64,000 nt of DNA from Betaproteobacteria bacterium (lineage in GTDB: Bacteria; Pseudomonadota; Gammaproteobacteria; Burkholderiales; Burkholderiaceae_C): NCBI GenBank assembly GCA_009921265.1, contig RFYV01000002.1:1-64000 (forward strand), in the 5' to 3' direction. Positions 31,594-42,876 of this stretch are shown piece by piece. Each line of letters opens with the position of its first letter. The first letter of the stretch is position 1. A model generated the notes under the pieces. The model was not told where the DNA came from and made no database searches. It saw only the letters and a list, made by a program, of their open reading frames with translations. The translations under genes and the position numbers were made by a program.

Positions 31594-32541
31594 TCAAGAA
31601 GCATCTTTGGCTGCTTTTTCGGCTTGTACTTGAAGTGCAATCGCTTCGACTTGTTCGTTAGACATGCCAAACTTGGCTTGTAAGGCTTTGAGCTTGAGTT
31701 GTTCTTCTTCGGTTACAACGCCATCGGCCAACACTTCGCGCACTTCCATTTCATACAAAGATTCACGGCGTTGAACTTGAGCGGTGTAGGCAGTGGCCAC
31801 CACACCCGTCAAAATAGCCGCCAGTGCAATTGCCAAAATTTGCGTGACAACCACAAGCACGGTACCTAAATACGTAACAGGATCCACATTGCCCCAGCCA
31901 GCAATAATGGTGAGAATAAACCAATGCATGGCGGCAGGAATCGAGCGGAAGACTTCGGGTTGGTCGTGTCCTTCAATGATGTAAATCAAAGATGAAAACA
32001 GTAAGCAACTGATCAGCAACAAAAATAATGCCGATGAAAAAGAATCGCGTTCGGATTTGATCGCTTCAAACATGTCTTCCATCGCACTGTTGTAGCGTGA
32101 CAGTTTAAAAATCCGCAATAAACGAAACATCCTGAGAACGCGCAAATCGGCGCCAGGAAATAAAAGTTGCAAATAAAATGGAACGGTACTGAAAAAATCA
32201 ACCAATCCAAAAACGCTAAAGAGATATTCTTTTCGCCCTTTCCATGCACTGCCTTTTTCTTGGGCTGCGTGCGTGTATTTGGCGCCGTACGACCAAACGC
32301 GCAACACATATTCCATTGAAAAAACTACCACACTGAAAGTGTCAAAAATATGAAATTCGTATTCGAAGGCTTCATGCAAGCTGTGAACCGATTCCAAAAT
32401 AATCGATACCACATTGGCAACAACGAGCAATGCAATAAAAATTTCACAGACGCGACTCGATCGATCGGCGACAGAACCATCTAAAATTTCATAGGTGCGC
32501 TTTTGTAAGCGTGCATAGGTCGACAAAGAAGTGGCGGACAT
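31594..32541 (-). CDS. voltage-gated-type ion channel with altered selectivity filter (AGWGN)
   Basis: A 315-residue six-helix channel: S1 near 33-55, S2 66-88, S3 107-130, S4 with repeated Arg (LRVLRMFRLLRIFK, about 133-146), S5, pore loop and S6. The filter reads IIAGWGN where K+ channels have TTVGYGD-like sequence: Tyr is replaced by Trp and the final Asp by Asn, so K+ selectivity is doubtful. A cytoplasmic tail carries a DGVVTEEEQLKL-type helical module shared with the two neighbours. A TTG at 32553 overlapping the upstream stop (four extra residues) is the alternative start; the ATG at 32541 follows AAGGA at 12 nt. Confidence 0.82.
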   Translation of the reverse strand: MSATSLSTYARLQKRTYEILDGSVADRSSRVCEIFIALLVVANVVSIILESVHSLHEAFEYEFHIFDTFSVVVFSMEYVLRVWSYGAKYTHAAQEKGSAWKGRKEYLFSVFGLVDFFSTVPFYLQLLFPGADLRVLRMFRLLRIFKLSRYNSAMEDMFEAIKSERDSFSSALFLLLISCLLFSSLIYIIEGHDQPEVFRSIPAAMHWFILTIIAGWGNVDPVTYLGTVLVVVTQILAIALAAILTGVVATAYTAQVQRRESLYEMEVREVLADGVVTEEEQLKLKALQAKFGMSNEQVEAIALQVQAEKAAKDAS

Positions 32542-32549
32542 TGAAGAGC

Positions 32550-33455
32550 TCAATCCTTTTTATTAGGGTTCATTTCATCCATCATGGCCTGCACTTGAGC
32601 ATCTGATAAACGATATTGAGATTGAAGGCGTTTGAGACTGTCTTTTTCTGCATCAGAAACAACACCGTCTTCAAATACTTTGCGCAGTTGGCTTTGAAAG
32701 GCCGCCTTCTTGCGTGACATTTGATTGGAAAAGGCCGATGCCACAATACCTGTCATGATGGCCGCCATACACACGCCCAAAAAGCCAGTGAGTAAGGCAA
32801 TGACTTCACCAGCCTTGGTGACGGGCTCCACATTGCCGTAACCCGATGTAATGGTCACGATTGACCAATAGATGGCGTGAGGAATCGAGCCAAAGGCTTC
32901 GGGCTGCTCGTGTCCCTCGGCAAAATGCATCAACGAGGCCGATACGATGGTCACAATCAATAATAAAAATGCAGCCGAGCCAAACGCGCGCCTCTCTGAA
33001 TGAACCGCAGCAAATAAATCTTGTAGCGCGGTGTTGTATTTGGAGAGCTTAAGGATTCGTAATAAGCGCAGCACTCGCAGAATACGCAAATCGAGCGATG
33101 GAAAAAACACATGCATATAAAAAGGCATGGTGGCAAAAAAATCGATCAATCCAAAGGGGCTGAACATGTAGCCACGTCGCCCGCGCCATGCGCCGCCTTC
33201 TTCTTTGGAAAACTTGGCGCCCAATGACCAAACGCGCAACACATACTCCAGCGTGAAAAACATCACGCTCCAAAATTCAAGCTCATGAAAAAAATCTTTG
33301 TAGTCTGCGTGCACCTCTGGAATGGAATCTAAAATAACAGCTGAACAATTAAATAGCACAACGACTGTGATGAGCCATTCCACATAACGACTGACGGCAT
33401 GATTGGGCGATCCGTCCAATACTTCCATTACAAATCGTTGATATTTTGACAACAT
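32550..33455 (-). CDS. voltage-gated-type ion channel with altered selectivity filter (SGYGN)
   Basis: A 301-residue six-helix channel, clearly a paralogue of the next gene downstream. S4 reads LRILRVLRLLRILK (about 123-136). The filter, VTITSGYGNVEP (residues 200-211), keeps GYG but has Ser in place of the Val before it and Asn for the final Asp. The C-terminal tail has DGVVSDAEKDSLKRL. It overlaps or abuts the 315-residue channel gene, suggesting coupled translation and possibly hetero-oligomers. Ion preference cannot be stated. Confidence 0.84.
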   Translation of the reverse strand: MLSKYQRFVMEVLDGSPNHAVSRYVEWLITVVVLFNCSAVILDSIPEVHADYKDFFHELEFWSVMFFTLEYVLRVWSLGAKFSKEEGGAWRGRRGYMFSPFGLIDFFATMPFYMHVFFPSLDLRILRVLRLLRILKLSKYNTALQDLFAAVHSERRAFGSAAFLLLIVTIVSASLMHFAEGHEQPEAFGSIPHAIYWSIVTITSGYGNVEPVTKAGEVIALLTGFLGVCMAAIMTGIVASAFSNQMSRKKAAFQSQLRKVFEDGVVSDAEKDSLKRLQSQYRLSDAQVQAMMDEMNPNKKD

Positions 33456-33477: not shown

Positions 33478-33524
33478 AATAAAAACGTGTACGGAATTGT
33501 TTCATTTCTACAATTCCCGTACAC
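33478..33524 (-). terminator. long hairpin terminator after the two-sensor channel gene
   Basis: On the minus strand, GTGTACGGG-AATTGT (from 33524) pairs with ACAATT-CCGTACAC (to 33487) over 14 bp with a one-base bulge and a nine-base loop. It is followed by GTTTTTATTTT. It separates the two-sensor channel transcript from the two smaller channels. Confidence 0.75.
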
Positions 33525-33544: not shown

Positions 33545-35194
33545 CTAGTTTTGCTTGGCCTTGATACTTTGCCACAACGACCATTCGGTGGCAGTAAGGC
33601 TATCGGACTCTTTGGCTGTTTGCTCAAATTTGGTTGTATCAGTGAGCATGCTTAATTGACGAATTTGACCAACGAGCATCTTGTAATGTTCAACCGCAAT
33701 CTCTGGTCTTTCGGCAATCACATGAATCGGCAATTCCTTGATGTTGTGTGCAGCCTCATTTTCTCGTTGCACCATTTCAATCAAGGCATTGACCTCTTCG
33801 GTGGTTAAGTGCAATCGTTTGGATTCTTGTCTGATGAAATTGGCTTCATCTTCATCAATATGGCCGTCTTTGAGCATCTCAAACAAATTGGCTTTGAGGG
33901 CTTCGCGTTCTTTGACCAATTGATCGCTGAATGCCGAAGAGAGTAAGGCCGCAGGAATAGCAAAAATACCAATACCAATCAGCGCCAAAACAATCGTCAT
34001 CGCTCGACCCATGGGGGTAACAGGTGAAATATCGCCATAACCCACAGAGGCCAGTGTAATCACAGCCCAATAAATCGATTGCGGAATGTTTTCAAATTTT
34101 TCGGGCTGCGCTTCGTGTTCAAACAAATAGCCAAGAGACGCTGTAAGAACAACCAGCAACATCATGATGAAGGCAGATGCACTCATCACGGGCCATTCAC
34201 GCACCACCACCTTGACTAAAATAGCGGTCGCATCGTTATAGCGTGTGAGTTTGAGTAAACGCGCCAAACGAAACACTCGCAAAAATCTCAAATCAATGAG
34301 GTGATGTAAAAACACTTCAAGGAAGAACGGGAGAATGGCAAGGAAGTCAATCAGCGTTGATGCTGTTTTAGCTTGCTTGAATCGCCCGCCAATCGGACTT
34401 TTAAAGCCAGGTTCTTCAACGCAACTGTAGATGCGCATGCAGTATTCAATGGTGAAAATACCAACCGCCACACTATCCAAAATCACAAATTGCAAATTCA
34501 AAATGTAGCTGACGCTCGCCATGGATTCCATGATCACCGCAAACACAGACAGCAGCACCCAAACACCAATGAATGCGTCAAAAATCTCTTGCATTTTTCC
34601 GCCGAAAGCGCTGGGGAAAACCAAGGCGTGTACGCGTTGTCGAAAGGTTCTACCTTGATTGAGTTTGACGAAGTCTGCGTAGGCTGGAATTAAGATTCGG
34701 AAAAGCTTGAGTATTCGAAGCAATCGCAAGAATCGCAAGATGCGTAAATCAAGTGGAATGCCCAACAGTTTAAGATAAAAAGGCGCAATGGCTAAAAAGT
34801 CAATGATGGCAAACGGACTGAATAGATAACTGACATGCGCATTTTTTTTGGTTTTGAACTCTTCGTCTTCGGGTGCCAAATAAAATCGCACGGCATATTC
34901 AATTGTGAAAACAATCACTGAGAAAATATCGAAGACGTGATAGAAGCCTTTATAGGGTTCATAAAGCGCAGGAACATGTTCAAACACCAATACAAATAAA
35001 TTGGCAACAATGAGCAAGCCAATCCATTTGTCGACGGCTTTTTGGTAGTTGCCGGGAATATTGGGATCGAGAAGCCACGAATACAGCCATTTTCTAAATG
35101 GTAAATCAGATGCGATATCGGCAACAATGTCTTGATTGCCCAACAGGCTTTGGACGTCAAGGTCTTCGAGTTTGTAAGATTTATTTTGTTCCAT
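33545..35194 (-). CDS. ion channel with two voltage-sensor domains and one pore
   Basis: A 549-residue membrane protein. Residues 57-168 form a complete S1-S4 sensor whose S4 is LRILRFLRLLRILKLFRI; no pore follows it. A loop of about 35 residues leads to a second S1-S4 sensor (about 205-317, S4 LRFLRVFRLARLLK) and then S5, a pore loop with TLASVGYGDISP (380-391, canonical K+ filter) and S6 (398-423). The C-terminal tail has the DGHIDEDEANFI module shared with the neighbouring channels. The order sensor-sensor-pore differs from both ordinary Kv channels and two-pore channels. AGGTGA lies just before the ATG, which is eight bases after the preceding gene. Potassium selectivity is inferred from the filter. 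Confidence 0.85.
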   Translation of the reverse strand: MEQNKSYKLEDLDVQSLLGNQDIVADIASDLPFRKWLYSWLLDPNIPGNYQKAVDKWIGLLIVANLFVLVFEHVPALYEPYKGFYHVFDIFSVIVFTIEYAVRFYLAPEDEEFKTKKNAHVSYLFSPFAIIDFLAIAPFYLKLLGIPLDLRILRFLRLLRILKLFRILIPAYADFVKLNQGRTFRQRVHALVFPSAFGGKMQEIFDAFIGVWVLLSVFAVIMESMASVSYILNLQFVILDSVAVGIFTIEYCMRIYSCVEEPGFKSPIGGRFKQAKTASTLIDFLAILPFFLEVFLHHLIDLRFLRVFRLARLLKLTRYNDATAILVKVVVREWPVMSASAFIMMLLVVLTASLGYLFEHEAQPEKFENIPQSIYWAVITLASVGYGDISPVTPMGRAMTIVLALIGIGIFAIPAALLSSAFSDQLVKEREALKANLFEMLKDGHIDEDEANFIRQESKRLHLTTEEVNALIEMVQRENEAAHNIKELPIHVIAERPEIAVEHYKMLVGQIRQLSMLTDTTKFEQTAKESDSLTATEWSLWQSIKAKQN

Positions 35195-35202
35195 GATTCA
35201 CC

Positions 35203-35847
35203 TCAAAATTCGAGTTCGGCTACTTTGATCGGATACGCACCTTTGTCGCAAACGGTCACGCGTATTTGTATCTTGTTCTCTATCGAGTCGCTATCGACAA
35301 ACTGCGAATTGGTCGTTGGAACCGCAGAGCCAGGTGGCGTTGGAACAATTTTTTCTAGAACGATGGCGCCAACCAAACTGCGATCGGCGGGTACACACTG
35401 CGCCACAATTTGTGGGCGTTCTTTGGTAAAGGGATTGATTAAATCTTTGATATCGGTGTTGTTCATGATGTGATTCAAACAAGCGCCCCATGTGCCATCA
35501 ATTGGTGCTGCTGCCTCTTTGTTTTCTTCGGGCTTGCCAGCAGCAGCAGGTGCAGCGGGGGGAGCTGCTGCTGCGGCTTGTTCTGCAGCGATCGCGTCTC
35601 CCGATTTGGCGTTGCATGCTGCAATTTCATAATCGGGCTTCATGCGCTCAGCGCTGACTTTCGTTAACCACTCAACCCAAGCCTCACCGTTTTGTTTTGT
35701 GACTTCTGTTTTCATTGCATCTTTGTAAGCCATCATGCCTAAAAGTGTAACGATCGCAACAACTACGACCATCGACAATAAAAACACAATGTCTGAGCCC
35801 GTGAGCTTGACCGATTGAGTCGGTTGATTGTTTGAGGTTGAATCCAT
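35203..35847 (-). CDS. membrane-anchored protein of unknown function in the channel operon
   Basis: A 214-residue protein not recognised. A short N-terminal region is followed by one transmembrane segment (about residues 19-42: IVFLLSMVVVVAIVTLLGMM). Next comes a soluble part with a low-complexity Ala/Pro stretch near 90-112. Four Cys in the soluble part could form disulfides if it is extracytoplasmic. It ends eight bases before the two-sensor channel gene and probably is its partner in one transcript. The ATG at 35847 is chosen; an extension to 35922 adds no hydrophobic or conserved feature. Confidence 0.65.
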   Translation of the reverse strand: MDSTSNNQPTQSVKLTGSDIVFLLSMVVVVAIVTLLGMMAYKDAMKTEVTKQNGEAWVEWLTKVSAERMKPDYEIAACNAKSGDAIAAEQAAAAAPPAAPAAAGKPEENKEAAAPIDGTWGACLNHIMNNTDIKDLINPFTKERPQIVAQCVPADRSLVGAIVLEKIVPTPPGSAVPTTNSQFVDSDSIENKIQIRVTVCDKGAYPIKVAELEF

Positions 35848-36013
35848 TTTGTAATGCCATTGAGTTGATAAACTCGATTCAATTCCTTGAATCGACCAAG
35901 AATGGTTTGATGATATTCGCAAAAACCTTAACTTGGATGAGTGTTTATCTGAACTTCATCCCATGAATTTCAATATAAAGAACCCTTAAGTATTAAAAGT
36001 AATTGCCCTGTCA

Positions 36014-38918: not shown

Positions 38919-40166
38919 TTAATTTTTAAGCAGATCGAGCAAGGTTCGAGCGATCACTTGCGTTGCGCGTCGTAAATCTTCCAAATCAATGCGCTCGTCG
39001 GCGCGCTTGGCATGCGATTCCAAAACTGTTCGTGGCCCGGCTCCATAAATCACGCCAGGAATACCGCGCTCCACGTACAAACGCACATCGGTATACAAGG
39101 GCGTGCCTAGCGCCGGTATTTTTTCTCCAAAAACAATTTCACCATGTTGTTGAATCGCTTGAACCAAAGGCATATTGCCCGATAAGGGTTTCATTGCTTT
39201 GGCCAAAAGCATGCGATGAATATTGACGTCGATGCATTGGTCTTTTGCTTTGCCTTTGTTAAACGCTTGGACGGCATCATCGATCACCTGGCGAATACTG
39301 GCTTCAACCACCGTTGGATCTTCTTCTGGAATCATTCGACGATCGAGTTTAAAAATCACTTTGCCAGGAACCACATTGGTATTGGTACCACCTTCAATGA
39401 GTCCAATGTTGAGATAAGGATGTTCAATGCCTTCAACAGTTGATGTGATATTTTGGTAAAGAATATTTTGTTGATACAACGCGTGTATGATTGTCGTTGC
39501 ACCTTGTAATGCGTCAACACCAGTTTGTGGAATTGCAGCGTGCGCCATTTTTCCATTTACGGTAACTTGCAATTGCAAGCAACCATTGTGCGCAGTAATC
39601 ACTTGATAGCTAAAGCCTGCAGCAATCATCAAGTCGGGTTTTGTGAGATTGTTTTTGAGCAACCAATCAGGTCCTAACTCACCACCAAATTCTTCGTCAT
39701 ATGTGAAATGCAATTCAACCGCACCGTTGAGTTTTAAGTTCAATGATTCGAGCGCGCGAACTGCAAATGTAAATGTTGAAAAATCACATTTACTCACGGC
39801 ACTTGCGCGGCCATACAATTTTCCATCAACGATTTCTGCGCCATATGGATCGTGCGTCCAACCTTCACCTGGGGGCACCACGTCGCCATGCGCATTAAGT
39901 GCAATGGTTTTTCCCTCTCCATATTCGCGTCGCACAATCAAATTAGTGATGGATTGCAATCCCTTTTTCTTAACTTCTGTATCTGGAATTTCAATAGCCT
40001 TGACGTCCATATCCCATTGCTTGAGCAATTGAGCGGTTCGCAATGCATGGGGTGTGTTGTTGCCAGGCGGCGTGTCGGTTGGGACACGAACAAGTTCTTG
40101 CAAAAATAAAACTTGTTCATCAAAATGTTGGTTCACCCAATCATCGATTTTTTGGTAGTGGTTCAT
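38919..40166 (-). CDS. M20 family metallohydrolase with unusual metal-site sequence
   Basis: A 415-residue ArgE/DapE-like hydrolase. The first metal His is in NAHGDVVPPG (His93), the catalytic Glu pair is in TYDEEFGGE (158-159), and a late His is in LESHAKRAD. Where most relatives have a bridging Asp (GRGxxDMKG), this one has GRASAVSKCDF, with Val124 in that place and Asp three residues further on; the later Glu ligand (EPT) appears as FSY near 185. It may be a subfamily with shifted ligands. As last gene of gntR-puuE-uraD/allC-this, a ureido or hydantoin-type substrate is possible. Its start overlaps the fusion gene stop by 4 nt. Confidence 0.8.
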   Translation of the reverse strand: MNHYQKIDDWVNQHFDEQVLFLQELVRVPTDTPPGNNTPHALRTAQLLKQWDMDVKAIEIPDTEVKKKGLQSITNLIVRREYGEGKTIALNAHGDVVPPGEGWTHDPYGAEIVDGKLYGRASAVSKCDFSTFTFAVRALESLNLKLNGAVELHFTYDEEFGGELGPDWLLKNNLTKPDLMIAAGFSYQVITAHNGCLQLQVTVNGKMAHAAIPQTGVDALQGATTIIHALYQQNILYQNITSTVEGIEHPYLNIGLIEGGTNTNVVPGKVIFKLDRRMIPEEDPTVVEASIRQVIDDAVQAFNKGKAKDQCIDVNIHRMLLAKAMKPLSGNMPLVQAIQQHGEIVFGEKIPALGTPLYTDVRLYVERGIPGVIYGAGPRTVLESHAKRADERIDLEDLRRATQVIARTLLDLLKN

Positions 40167-41941
40167 GTTTTTTTCTCGGTCAGGTAAATCAATTGCATCA
40201 AGGCGTCAATTGACAATTGAATGTCATCGTTGGTAGTGCTTTCTAAAGGATTGTGACTAATGCCGGCATTGAGTCCGCGCACAAACAACATGGCTTGCGG
40301 CATCACTTCGTGCAACTTCATGGCGTCATGTCCTGCTCCACTGGGTAGTTCAAACAAGGGGATGTTCAAATCAGACAATGCTTGTGTCCAACGTGCTTGC
40401 CATAAAGGATCGCTGGGTGCGCAAGAGGCGCGCATGGTTTCTTCGATGTGATAGCTCAAGCCACGTTCCTTGCAAATGGATTCGAGTTCTTGCAACACAT
40501 CACTCACCAATGAATCGCGTTGCGCGTCGTTGGGTGCGCGCATATCCAAACTGAAATGACATTGACCCGCCACTACGTTGATCGAGCCTTGTGGCACATT
40601 CAATTGACCGATGGTGGCAACGCTATCACCATCTTGAATGGCGCGCTTTTCAAGATAAACAGCCAATTGGGCAAGACCACTCACCGCGTCTCTTCTGCGA
40701 TCCATCGGTGTTGTACCTGCATGGCTTGCCATGCCGTTGATGTGACCCACAAAACGAACGCTGCCGTTGATGGATGTCACGACACCCAAAGGTAAATCTT
40801 TTTCATTGAGAACAGGACCTTGCTCAATATGCACTTCAACAAAGCCAAGGTATTTTTTTGGGTTGCGCTTGATCGATGCAATTTGAGTGATATCCAAGCC
40901 CGCGTTTTTCATGGCCTCGCGCATCGAAATGCCATCTGCGTCTAATTGATCGAGCCACTGTGGATTGAATTGACCCACCAACGCGCCCGAACCTAAAAAT
41001 GTCGCCTTATAGCGTTGGCCCTCTTCTTCTGAAAACGCTACAACTTCGATATCAAAGGGCAGACGTTTACTTTGTTGGTGTAATTGGGCAACGCAAGCGA
41101 TGGGAACATAAATCCCGAGTCGTCCATCGTGTTTACCACCGTTGCGCACCGTGTCGTAATGCGATCCTGTCATCAATGTTTGAGGCTGTTTGATATTTGC
41201 ATCGGCTTTGTAGATGCCAACAACATTTCCAACCGCATCGTGGGAGACTTCGTCAAATCCATTTTGACGCATCAAGTGTCCAATATCGCTCGCGCATGCG
41301 CGATGTGCATCGGTAAGGTATGTAACGGCGAGTTGATTTTTTTCTTTAAAACCAGGATCACTGTGTTTGGATAAATCTTCCAACCAATCCCACACACGGT
41401 TGCCCAAATCGGGTTGATCGTTCAATTTGTCATGCAAGCGAATTTCGGCAATGCGATGAATATTTCTAAGCGCTTCTTCAAACTCATAGTCGACGGGATG
41501 ATTCAGGCGTCTCTCGAATGTATCGATGATGTTTTGCCTTTGCAGACCCGTGCCTCTTGGACCTCTCACGGCCAATATAAATGGGAAGCCCATTTTTTGG
41601 TTGTACTCGGTATTGAGTTGTTGAATGCGTGCGAATTCTTCTGGGGTGCAATGCGTGAGGCCGGCTTTGCTTTGCTCGTTGGTTGAATCGTGCGTCAGGT
41701 TTTGATTGACCATCGCTTTACCCGCCAATTCGGGGTGGGCACGTATCAATGTCATTTGAGCGTCTTGCCCCGCGTTTTTAACTACTTCGACCATGCAAAA
41801 TTTAAGTTGCGCAATCGATGCAAAAGGGCGTTGCGTTAGCGCGCGTTCAACAATCCAATCCGAATGCTCGTACAAGCCACTGATTCGCTCTAAAGCATCG
41901 CGCGGCGGCAATTGGTTGATGTCTTGCAGACTTAAACTCAT
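40163..41941 (-). CDS. OHCU decarboxylase-allantoate amidohydrolase fusion
   Basis: A 592-residue two-domain protein. Residues 1-172 are an OHCU decarboxylase (UraD): IRAHPELAGK with the catalytic His69, and KMGFPFILAVRG near 116-127. Residues about 180-592 are an M20-type allantoate amidohydrolase (AllC): TGSHYDTVRNGGKHDG metal motif, SEEEGQRY, EVHIEQGP and SHNPLES. The protein thus combines the step that makes S-allantoin with the one that degrades allantoate, skipping allantoinase, which is the adjacent gene. The ATG at 41941 is chosen because it forms ATGA with the puuE stop and follows AAGGA. All key motifs look intact. Confidence 0.92.
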   Translation of the reverse strand: MSLSLQDINQLPPRDALERISGLYEHSDWIVERALTQRPFASIAQLKFCMVEVVKNAGQDAQMTLIRAHPELAGKAMVNQNLTHDSTNEQSKAGLTHCTPEEFARIQQLNTEYNQKMGFPFILAVRGPRGTGLQRQNIIDTFERRLNHPVDYEFEEALRNIHRIAEIRLHDKLNDQPDLGNRVWDWLEDLSKHSDPGFKEKNQLAVTYLTDAHRACASDIGHLMRQNGFDEVSHDAVGNVVGIYKADANIKQPQTLMTGSHYDTVRNGGKHDGRLGIYVPIACVAQLHQQSKRLPFDIEVVAFSEEEGQRYKATFLGSGALVGQFNPQWLDQLDADGISMREAMKNAGLDITQIASIKRNPKKYLGFVEVHIEQGPVLNEKDLPLGVVTSINGSVRFVGHINGMASHAGTTPMDRRRDAVSGLAQLAVYLEKRAIQDGDSVATIGQLNVPQGSINVVAGQCHFSLDMRAPNDAQRDSLVSDVLQELESICKERGLSYHIEETMRASCAPSDPLWQARWTQALSDLNIPLFELPSGAGHDAMKLHEVMPQAMLFVRGLNAGISHNPLESTTNDDIQLSIDALMQLIYLTEKKT

Positions 41942-42876
41942 AGAGAGTCCTTGAAGGGATGCGTTGACTTCCAATGCCTTGCAATATCGACGCGTCTGCA
42001 AATCCACACATGACTGTGTTTTTCAACGTGATCTAAAAATTTTTGCAAAGCCACGATGCGTCCTGGGCGCCCCAACAGTCTGCAATGCATGCCAATGCTC
42101 ATCATCTTGGGTGAGTCTGCGCCTTCGGCGTACAACGCGTCAAAACTGTCTCTCAAATAAACAAAGAAATCTTCAGCTTGTGAAAAACCTTGTGGCAATG
42201 AAAAACGCATATCGTTTGTGTCCATGGTGTAGGGCACGATCAAATGTGGGACTACATTTCCATTGGTTTTTTGAACCTTCATCCAAAAAGGTAAATCATC
42301 ACCGTAATAATCACTGTCGTATTCAAGTCCATGATCTGCCACGATTCGTCGCGTGTTGGGGCTGTCTCTTCCTGTGTACCACCCCGCAGGTTTTTGTCCT
42401 GTTAATTTTTGAATGATGTCGATGCCTTGATTGAAGTGCAATGTTTCGGTGGCTTCATCGATAGTTTGGTAGTTGAGCCATCGCCAACCGTGACACGCAA
42501 TCTCATGACCCAATTCAACAAAGGCTTGCGTGATTTCGGGGTAACGCTCAAGAGCCATGCTCACACCAAACACAGTGAGCGGTAGTTGACGTTTTTCAAA
42601 TTCTTTAAGGATTCGCCATACGCCCACGCGCGAACCGTATTCATAAATACTTTCCATACTCAAATGGCGATCTGCAAAACTTGCGGGATTGAACATCTCA
42701 CTTAAAAATTGTTCAGATCCTGCGTCGCCATGAAGCGTTGCGTTTTCAGCGCCTTCTTCGTAGTTGAGAACAAATTGCAATGCAACACGCGCTTGGTTGG
42801 GCCACTTCGCATGGGGGGGATTTTTTCCATAGCCTTTGAGGTCACGAGGGTAAACATGCGTGGTGTCGTAAATCAT
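41938..42876 (-). CDS. puuE: allantoinase PuuE (polysaccharide-deacetylase fold)
   Basis: A 312-residue cofactor-type allantoinase of the polysaccharide deacetylase family, hydrolysing allantoin to allantoate. Family stretches: YPRDLKGYGKNPPHAKWP near 9-26, NYEEGAENATLHGD near 39-52, and GWYTGRDSPNTRRIV near 160-174. It is unrelated to the metallo-dependent AllB. It follows gntR by 11 bases and overlaps the fusion gene by 4 nt, so the four genes form one operon. Confidence 0.93.
   Translation of the reverse strand: MIYDTTHVYPRDLKGYGKNPPHAKWPNQARVALQFVLNYEEGAENATLHGDAGSEQFLSEMFNPASFADRHLSMESIYEYGSRVGVWRILKEFEKRQLPLTVFGVSMALERYPEITQAFVELGHEIACHGWRWLNYQTIDEATETLHFNQGIDIIQKLTGQKPAGWYTGRDSPNTRRIVADHGLEYDSDYYGDDLPFWMKVQKTNGNVVPHLIVPYTMDTNDMRFSLPQGFSQAEDFFVYLRDSFDALYAEGADSPKMMSIGMHCRLLGRPGRIVALQKFLDHVEKHSHVWICRRVDIARHWKSTHPFKDSL

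Follow-up and report, generated by a model that had tools for sequence, protein, structure and literature searches.

The 549-residue product of gene A (33545..35194, minus strand), located in a 64,000-nucleotide stretch of contig RFYV01000002.1 from a Betaproteobacteria bacterium (hereafter the window), is a K+-channel-type subunit in which two tandem voltage-sensor domains (VSD1 and VSD2) precede one pore, and we lean towards a tetramer that carries eight sensors on one K+ pore. This reading rests on the domain order, the K+-type selectivity filter, near-invariant sensing residues, a fixed spacing between the two S4 segments, the single clade formed by the VSD1s and the existence of single-sensor relatives. 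The gene was delineated by its reading frame, Pfam, an AlphaFold model and 133 distinct double-sensor homologues (doubles), and the plus strand in frame 1 over the same positions contains many stops. An earlier sequence-only reading had proposed the order VSD-VSD-pore with a single canonical GYGD pore, which Pfam, the model and the homologues bear out and show to be conserved. Judged from sequence, VSD1 most likely functions as an additional voltage sensor in a tetrameric K+ channel, and by analogy with the tetrameric Kv channels eight sensors would surround one pore.

The product consists of VSD1, a 30-residue linker, VSD2 and S5/pore/S6, all encoded on the minus strand. VSD1 (residues 49-168; 34691..35050) was assigned by Pfam, the model, sequence matches and conservation; its helices in the model span residues 51-72, 82-109, 127-143 and 150-178, and its S4 carries R151, R154, R157, R160, K163 and R166. 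VSD2 (residues 199-318; 34241..34600), assigned by Pfam, the model and conservation, has helices at residues 199-223, 226-260, 278-295 and 302-317 and an S4 with R303, R306, R309, R312, K315 and R318. The S4-S5 linker, S5, pore helix and S6 follow (residues 319-432; 33899..34240), with S5 at 334-359, the pore helix at 370-382 and S6 at 394-441 in the model. The filter TLASVGYGD (residues 380-388; 34031..34057), read from the sequence, is identical at all nine residues in 120 of the 133 distinct doubles, and its SVGYGD is the K+ type TxGYG with S replacing T; GYGD is present in 133/133. A helical C-terminus (residues 433-549; 33548..33898), which we take to be cytosolic from the alignment and the model, begins with a segment that aligns with the products of the downstream genes B and C. 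As in other members of the Ion_trans superfamily, an S1-S4 sensor followed by S5-P-S6 was found. Pfam recognised Ion_trans in two stretches of the protein (3.5e-45) and Ion_trans_2 once, and in the genome-level Pfam search, where the Ion_trans cut-off was 25 bits, the first half alone scored 57.3 bits (E 2.0e-15). The S4 motifs of six charges, with a basic residue at every third position, begin at residues 151 and 303, and no such motif arose in 20000 shuffles of the protein.

The AlphaFold model (monomer, 68 sequences, mean pLDDT 81.7, pTM 0.69) contains membrane helices in the arrangement 4 + 4 + 2 with none pore-like between the sensors, so that the four-helix nature claimed for the first sensor holds in the model. 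The sequence between the sensors had also been described as a soluble-looking loop. The linker (residues 169-198; 34601..34690), defined by alignment, hydropathy and the model, is indeed hydrophilic and holds no pore; it also aligns with the N-terminal segment of the single-sensor relatives. There is no hidden pore helix or filter between residues 168 and 205, since residues 169-205 lack a hydrophobic segment (mean over 19 residues no higher than 0.46) and the only two GxG motifs of the protein lie in the filter (residue 385) and within S6 (residue 407). When VSD1 was excised and analysed alone, it gave a four-helix model (mean pLDDT 82.6) that superposes on Kv and Nav sensors, and its sequence matches comprised KCNQ2, a NaChBac/Nav1.7 chimera and an isolated K+ channel sensor.

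Within the 133 distinct doubles, a set selected by the S4 charge pattern, which favours conserved charges, VSD1 keeps its sensing residues roughly as constant as VSD2 does. E72, F96, E99 and R103 are kept in 132 of 132 doubles and D132, R157, R160 and K163 in all 133, whereas 133 have R or K at site 154, 132 have R166 and 125 have R151. Because this set had been picked by its S4 pattern, the charges were recounted without that rule. Among 131 frames selected solely for their length, R stands at site 151 in 123, site 154 is R or K in 131, sites 157, 160 and 163 are basic in 131 and site 166 is R in 130; in 240 database proteins taken with no S4 rule, the six VSD1 S4 sites are basic wherever present (one gap at 151 and one at 154). 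The distance from S4 to S4 is 152 residues in 124 of the distinct doubles, 149 in eight and 151 in one. Median ratios of nonsynonymous to synonymous substitution (dN/dS) over 294 pairs were 0.047 for VSD1, 0.056 for VSD2 and 0.018 for the pore, as rough values with dS about 1. By these sequence comparisons VSD1 is under purifying selection like VSD2 and is not decaying. Where stops or frameshifts interrupt a frame (L033, L035, L055, L161; L and G denote our loci and genomes), it was kept as found.

Single-sensor channels of about 390-400 residues (L041-L047) share the core with gene A at 52-58% identity; they lack VSD1, and their N-terminus aligns with the gene A linker (GRTFRQ..ALV.P). In a tree of the core, the doubles (99/92) stand next to a clade of ten single-sensor channels (100/97). 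In a tree of the sensor domains, all 21 VSD1s fall into one clade (100/100) and the VSD2s group with the singles (97/88). As the VSD1s are one clade, the VSD2s group with the singles and the linker matches the N-terminus of the singles, the doubles are most simply explained by a single fusion of one VSD to the N-terminus of a complete single-sensor channel; loss of VSD1 in the singles would be a less simple alternative. A grouping of VSD1 with channels like B and C, as a pointer to its donor, reached only 56/0 in the sensor tree.

The search for further proteins with this domain order, which returned the 133 distinct doubles, went beyond the sequence-only reading in placing the gene A protein in a large conserved family. 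In the genus (84 genomes, E 1e-60), gene A matches were found in 80 genomes, and a match covering both sensors in 76, of which 75 run to S6 and one is cut off; the sole match in G1105 carries a stop codon. The remainder comprised G011 and G031 with single-sensor matches only, G1109 and G1130 with fragments only, and four genomes with no match. Matches were obtained in 12/299 genomes of the family sample at 1e-40, including a full double in another genus (G322), and in 5/399 of the order sample at 1e-60, where doubles occur in G542, G666 and G691 from two further families. The phylum sample gave matches in 19/398 genomes at 1e-50; except for those in the window genome and G666, these start at residue 176 or later (>=176) in frames of 318-402 residues, as for single-sensor channels. 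A scan of genome contigs confirmed 372 stretches, of which 80 were kept, with record titles that include Comamonadaceae, Limnohabitans and Rhodoferax and in some cases name lakes. One locus (L118), 67% identical to the gene A channel, stands under a record titled Rickettsia typhi amid Comamonadaceae records and is probably a mislabelled metagenome bin. Besides, two double-sensor genes lie in direct tandem, a few bases apart, in L023:2571-5806, L168:4623-7837 and L169:611-3828.

A plasmid of Gemmobacter aquarius, a freshwater alphaproteobacterium, encodes a 491-residue double annotated as an ion transporter (L217:4707-6182), 38% identical over residues 88-439, a span that runs from S2 of VSD1 through its S4, the linker and VSD2 to the pore. 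When this protein was used as query in a second phylum sample, 22/279 genomes matched and no further double was found there besides that of the window's own genome; seven unusual-looking loci from this sample have one VSD each.

The gene upstream of A, gene D (35203..35922, minus strand), ends with its stop 8 bases before A and encodes a one-helix membrane protein of up to 239 residues (start uncertain). Besides its single hydrophobic segment, this protein has four conserved cysteines, its C-terminus (CD.G onward) is conserved as well, and it had no Pfam match above cut-off. D lies upstream of 97/103 group-1 doubles, 3/26 group-2 doubles, which are paralogues about 45% identical, and 0/12 singles, counted in rows that were not de-duplicated and with loci having fewer than 900 bases upstream (12 doubles, 2 singles) excluded; the singles number 12 because two of the 14 rows, L035 and L161, each represent half of a broken double. 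Of the six group-1 doubles that lack D, five are paralogues, with 51-53% identity in those cases that the genus search lists. D is a candidate accessory subunit of the double-sensor channel.

The two genes downstream of A, which the sequence-only reading had not covered, encode related channels, as determined by Pfam, alignment and homologues. Gene B (32550..33455, minus strand) encodes a 301-residue single-sensor channel whose K+-type filter TITSGYGN is one residue short of the canonical length, and gene C (31594..32553, minus strand) another of up to 319 residues (TTG start, uncertain) with the filter TIIAGWGN, likewise one residue short. The pattern T-I-T-[SA]-G-[YFW]-G-N was found in 72 of 74 distinct B sequences, with one differing at two places and one giving no match, and the short filter was kept in 73 of the 74; all 71 distinct C sequences have the short GWG[NG]. 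At 1e-80, which B reaches too, C-type matches occur in 56/84 genomes of the genus. A, B and C were the only Ion_trans matches in the window genome at E 0.001, a search that covered this channel family and no other. The order A-B-C was found in 73/141 double-sensor rows (not de-duplicated), and B-C pairs without A occur in L211, from another family, and L212. Between A and B lies a terminator-like hairpin followed by a T run (33487..33524, minus strand; -18.8 kcal/mol, z -1.5, equalled in 15/200 shuffles, hence weak alone), which was absent from the terminator scan and from the results of the hairpin pattern. In other genomes that pattern was found in 26/56 A-B gaps longer than 40 bases, compared with 7-14 gaps per shuffled set (twelve sets). 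As B-C pairs exist without A and terminator-like hairpins lie in A-B gaps, D-A and B-C may be two units.

In eight loci (seven contigs, going by their lengths), a group-2 paralogue, likewise a double, overlaps by 4 bp with the BacNav-type sodium-channel gene that precedes it, for example in L021:6174-8623 and L173:10861-13265. The overlap recurs in L214-L216 (L214:8667-11077), two of these three repeating genomes already counted. The BacNav-type gene encodes an Ion_trans protein with the filter TLESW, which we take as the mark of BacNav. Other group-2 doubles, such as those of L023, L030, L168 and L172, have no BacNav-type gene upstream, and the double of L170:6549-9639 has a BacNav-like gene on either side, each with a TGDGW filter and possibly of different selectivity. 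In L214-L216 and L021, about 9 kb hold D, A, B, C, a K+ channel gene in opposite orientation, BacNav and a second double. BacNav relatives were found in 47/84 genomes of the genus at 1e-40 and not in the window's own genome in a search at the same threshold.

In the mechanism that we propose, VSD2 would act on the gate by way of the S4-S5 linker, the route usual in Kv channels, and VSD1 would be placed outside VSD2. The S4 of VSD1 continues into the helical linker in the model, so its voltage-driven movement could be passed to S1 of VSD2 and might thereby alter the steepness, range or step number of opening. The channel would open on depolarisation and restore the potential after its companions, presumably B and C here and BacNav beside the paralogues, have admitted cations. 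Several points weigh against this explanation. VSD1 lacks a separate S4-S5 linker, which leaves its coupling to the gate hypothetical; the best E-value in a Foldseek search with VSD1 alone was a weak 1.1e-3; and the dN/dS ratios are rough because dS is near 1. Single-sensor relatives such as L041-L047 manage without VSD1, and in G011 and G031 only single-sensor matches were found. Two singles (L160 and L163) stand inside the double clade of the core tree on long branches, therefore loss of VSD1 may also have happened. The Gemmobacter double keeps the order with fewer S4 charges in both sensors, and therefore the full charge set is not required everywhere.

In a different role, VSD1 would be a folded domain kept for assembly, targeting or docking, be it to VSD2, D or B/C, and its response to voltage would be irrelevant to gating. 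VSD1 is not wired to S5, D accompanies nearly all group-1 double rows and none of the single-sensor rows, and VSD1 of Gemmobacter has lost S4 charges. However, the near-invariant S4 charges and countercharges of VSD1 exceed what a docking scaffold would seem to need, and the group-2 doubles retain VSD1 though only 3/26 have D; we regard this role as unlikely, yet the strongest competitor. It is less probable still that A, B and C co-assemble as mixed tetramers, with canonical and shortened filters in one pore and the extra VSD marking the place of A. The recurrent A-B-C order, the related cores and the common start of the C-terminal segment would fit such assembly, but some genomes, such as G019 and G027 (no C match at 1e-80), have A in the absence of B and C, B-C pairs occur without upstream A, and the terminator-like hairpins are more frequent in the longer A-B gaps than in shuffled sets.

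Two further explanations are disfavoured as very improbable. VSD1 might itself be a conduction path, an Hv1-like proton pathway on a K+ channel, as a VSD without its own pore is the Hv1 layout and VSD1 has a full S4. But the S1 residue that lies seven positions ahead of the outer glutamate, and that presumably corresponds to Hv1 D112, is N in 108, S in 23 and a gap in 2 of the 133 doubles. In Hv1, D112 is crucial for proton selectivity (PMC13095418). The first half might equally be seen as the decaying remnant of a 6TM-6TM fusion (six transmembrane segments, 6TM, each) that lost its first pore, given that tandem 6TM-6TM Kv-like channels exist in eukaryotes (PMC7576140) and that single-sensor relatives exist. 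Against this explanation are the VSD1 dN/dS of 0.047 with near-invariant sensing residues, the fixed S4-S4 spacing across 133 proteins, the single VSD1 clade and a linker that has no pore remnant and aligns with the N-terminus of the singles.

Tentatively, and as a rather doubtful proposal, an eight-sensor K+ channel could serve for repolarisation within a bacterial module dedicated to excitability, and its doubled sensor would make the response steeper or delay it. In several genomes the stretch of about 9 kb encodes the parts that self-limiting voltage spikes would need. The 4-bp pairing of BacNav with a double offers a genetic handle on whether sodium and potassium channels are employed jointly by bacteria. 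Apart from the channel genes, one frame of the window (40163-42007, minus strand) combines an OHCU decarboxylase domain with an M20 peptidase-type domain and is likely a fusion of two ureide-breakdown steps; the channel genes separate this frame from UreD and branched-chain-type ABC transporter genes.

How the number and placement of sensors relate to the steepness of voltage gating is an old question, usually probed by concatemers and mutants. Here a natural family with double sensors per pore domain stands beside single-sensor relatives of similar core in the same genus, and therefore the effect of an added VSD is testable on natural proteins. The claim that no characterised channel has the VSD-VSD-pore order agrees with our literature searches, in whose titles and abstract openings this order was not found and outside which lay most subscription papers and all preprints; the available part of PMC13095418 has no mention of 'tandem', 'two VSDs' or 'eight'. 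The Kv-type channels (Kv4, KCNQ, KvAP) share VSD2-S5-pore-S6, the GYGD filter and the Kv fold with gene A, but have one VSD per subunit, whereas gene A has a second complete VSD (residues 49-168) ahead. Hv1, VSP and TMEM266 resemble VSD1 in having a VSD that is followed by no pore of its own, and to our knowledge their chains have no K+ pore; Hv1 is a VSD only, while gene A carries a full pore domain, and the position taken as equivalent to the S1 aspartate of Hv1 (D112) is N or S in doubles. The tandem channel types listed in the available part of PMC7576140 are K2P, TOK, TPC, four-domain and tandem 6TM-6TM channels, none with two VSDs and one pore. TPC and the eukaryotic tandem 6TM-6TM Kv-like channels have two VSDs per chain like gene A, but place a pore after each, whereas gene A has one pore after two VSDs joined by a 30-residue hydrophilic linker. 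The closest parallel in unequal numbers of sensor and pore modules is TOK (6TM + 2TM), which combines two pores with one sensor, while gene A combines two sensors with one pore.
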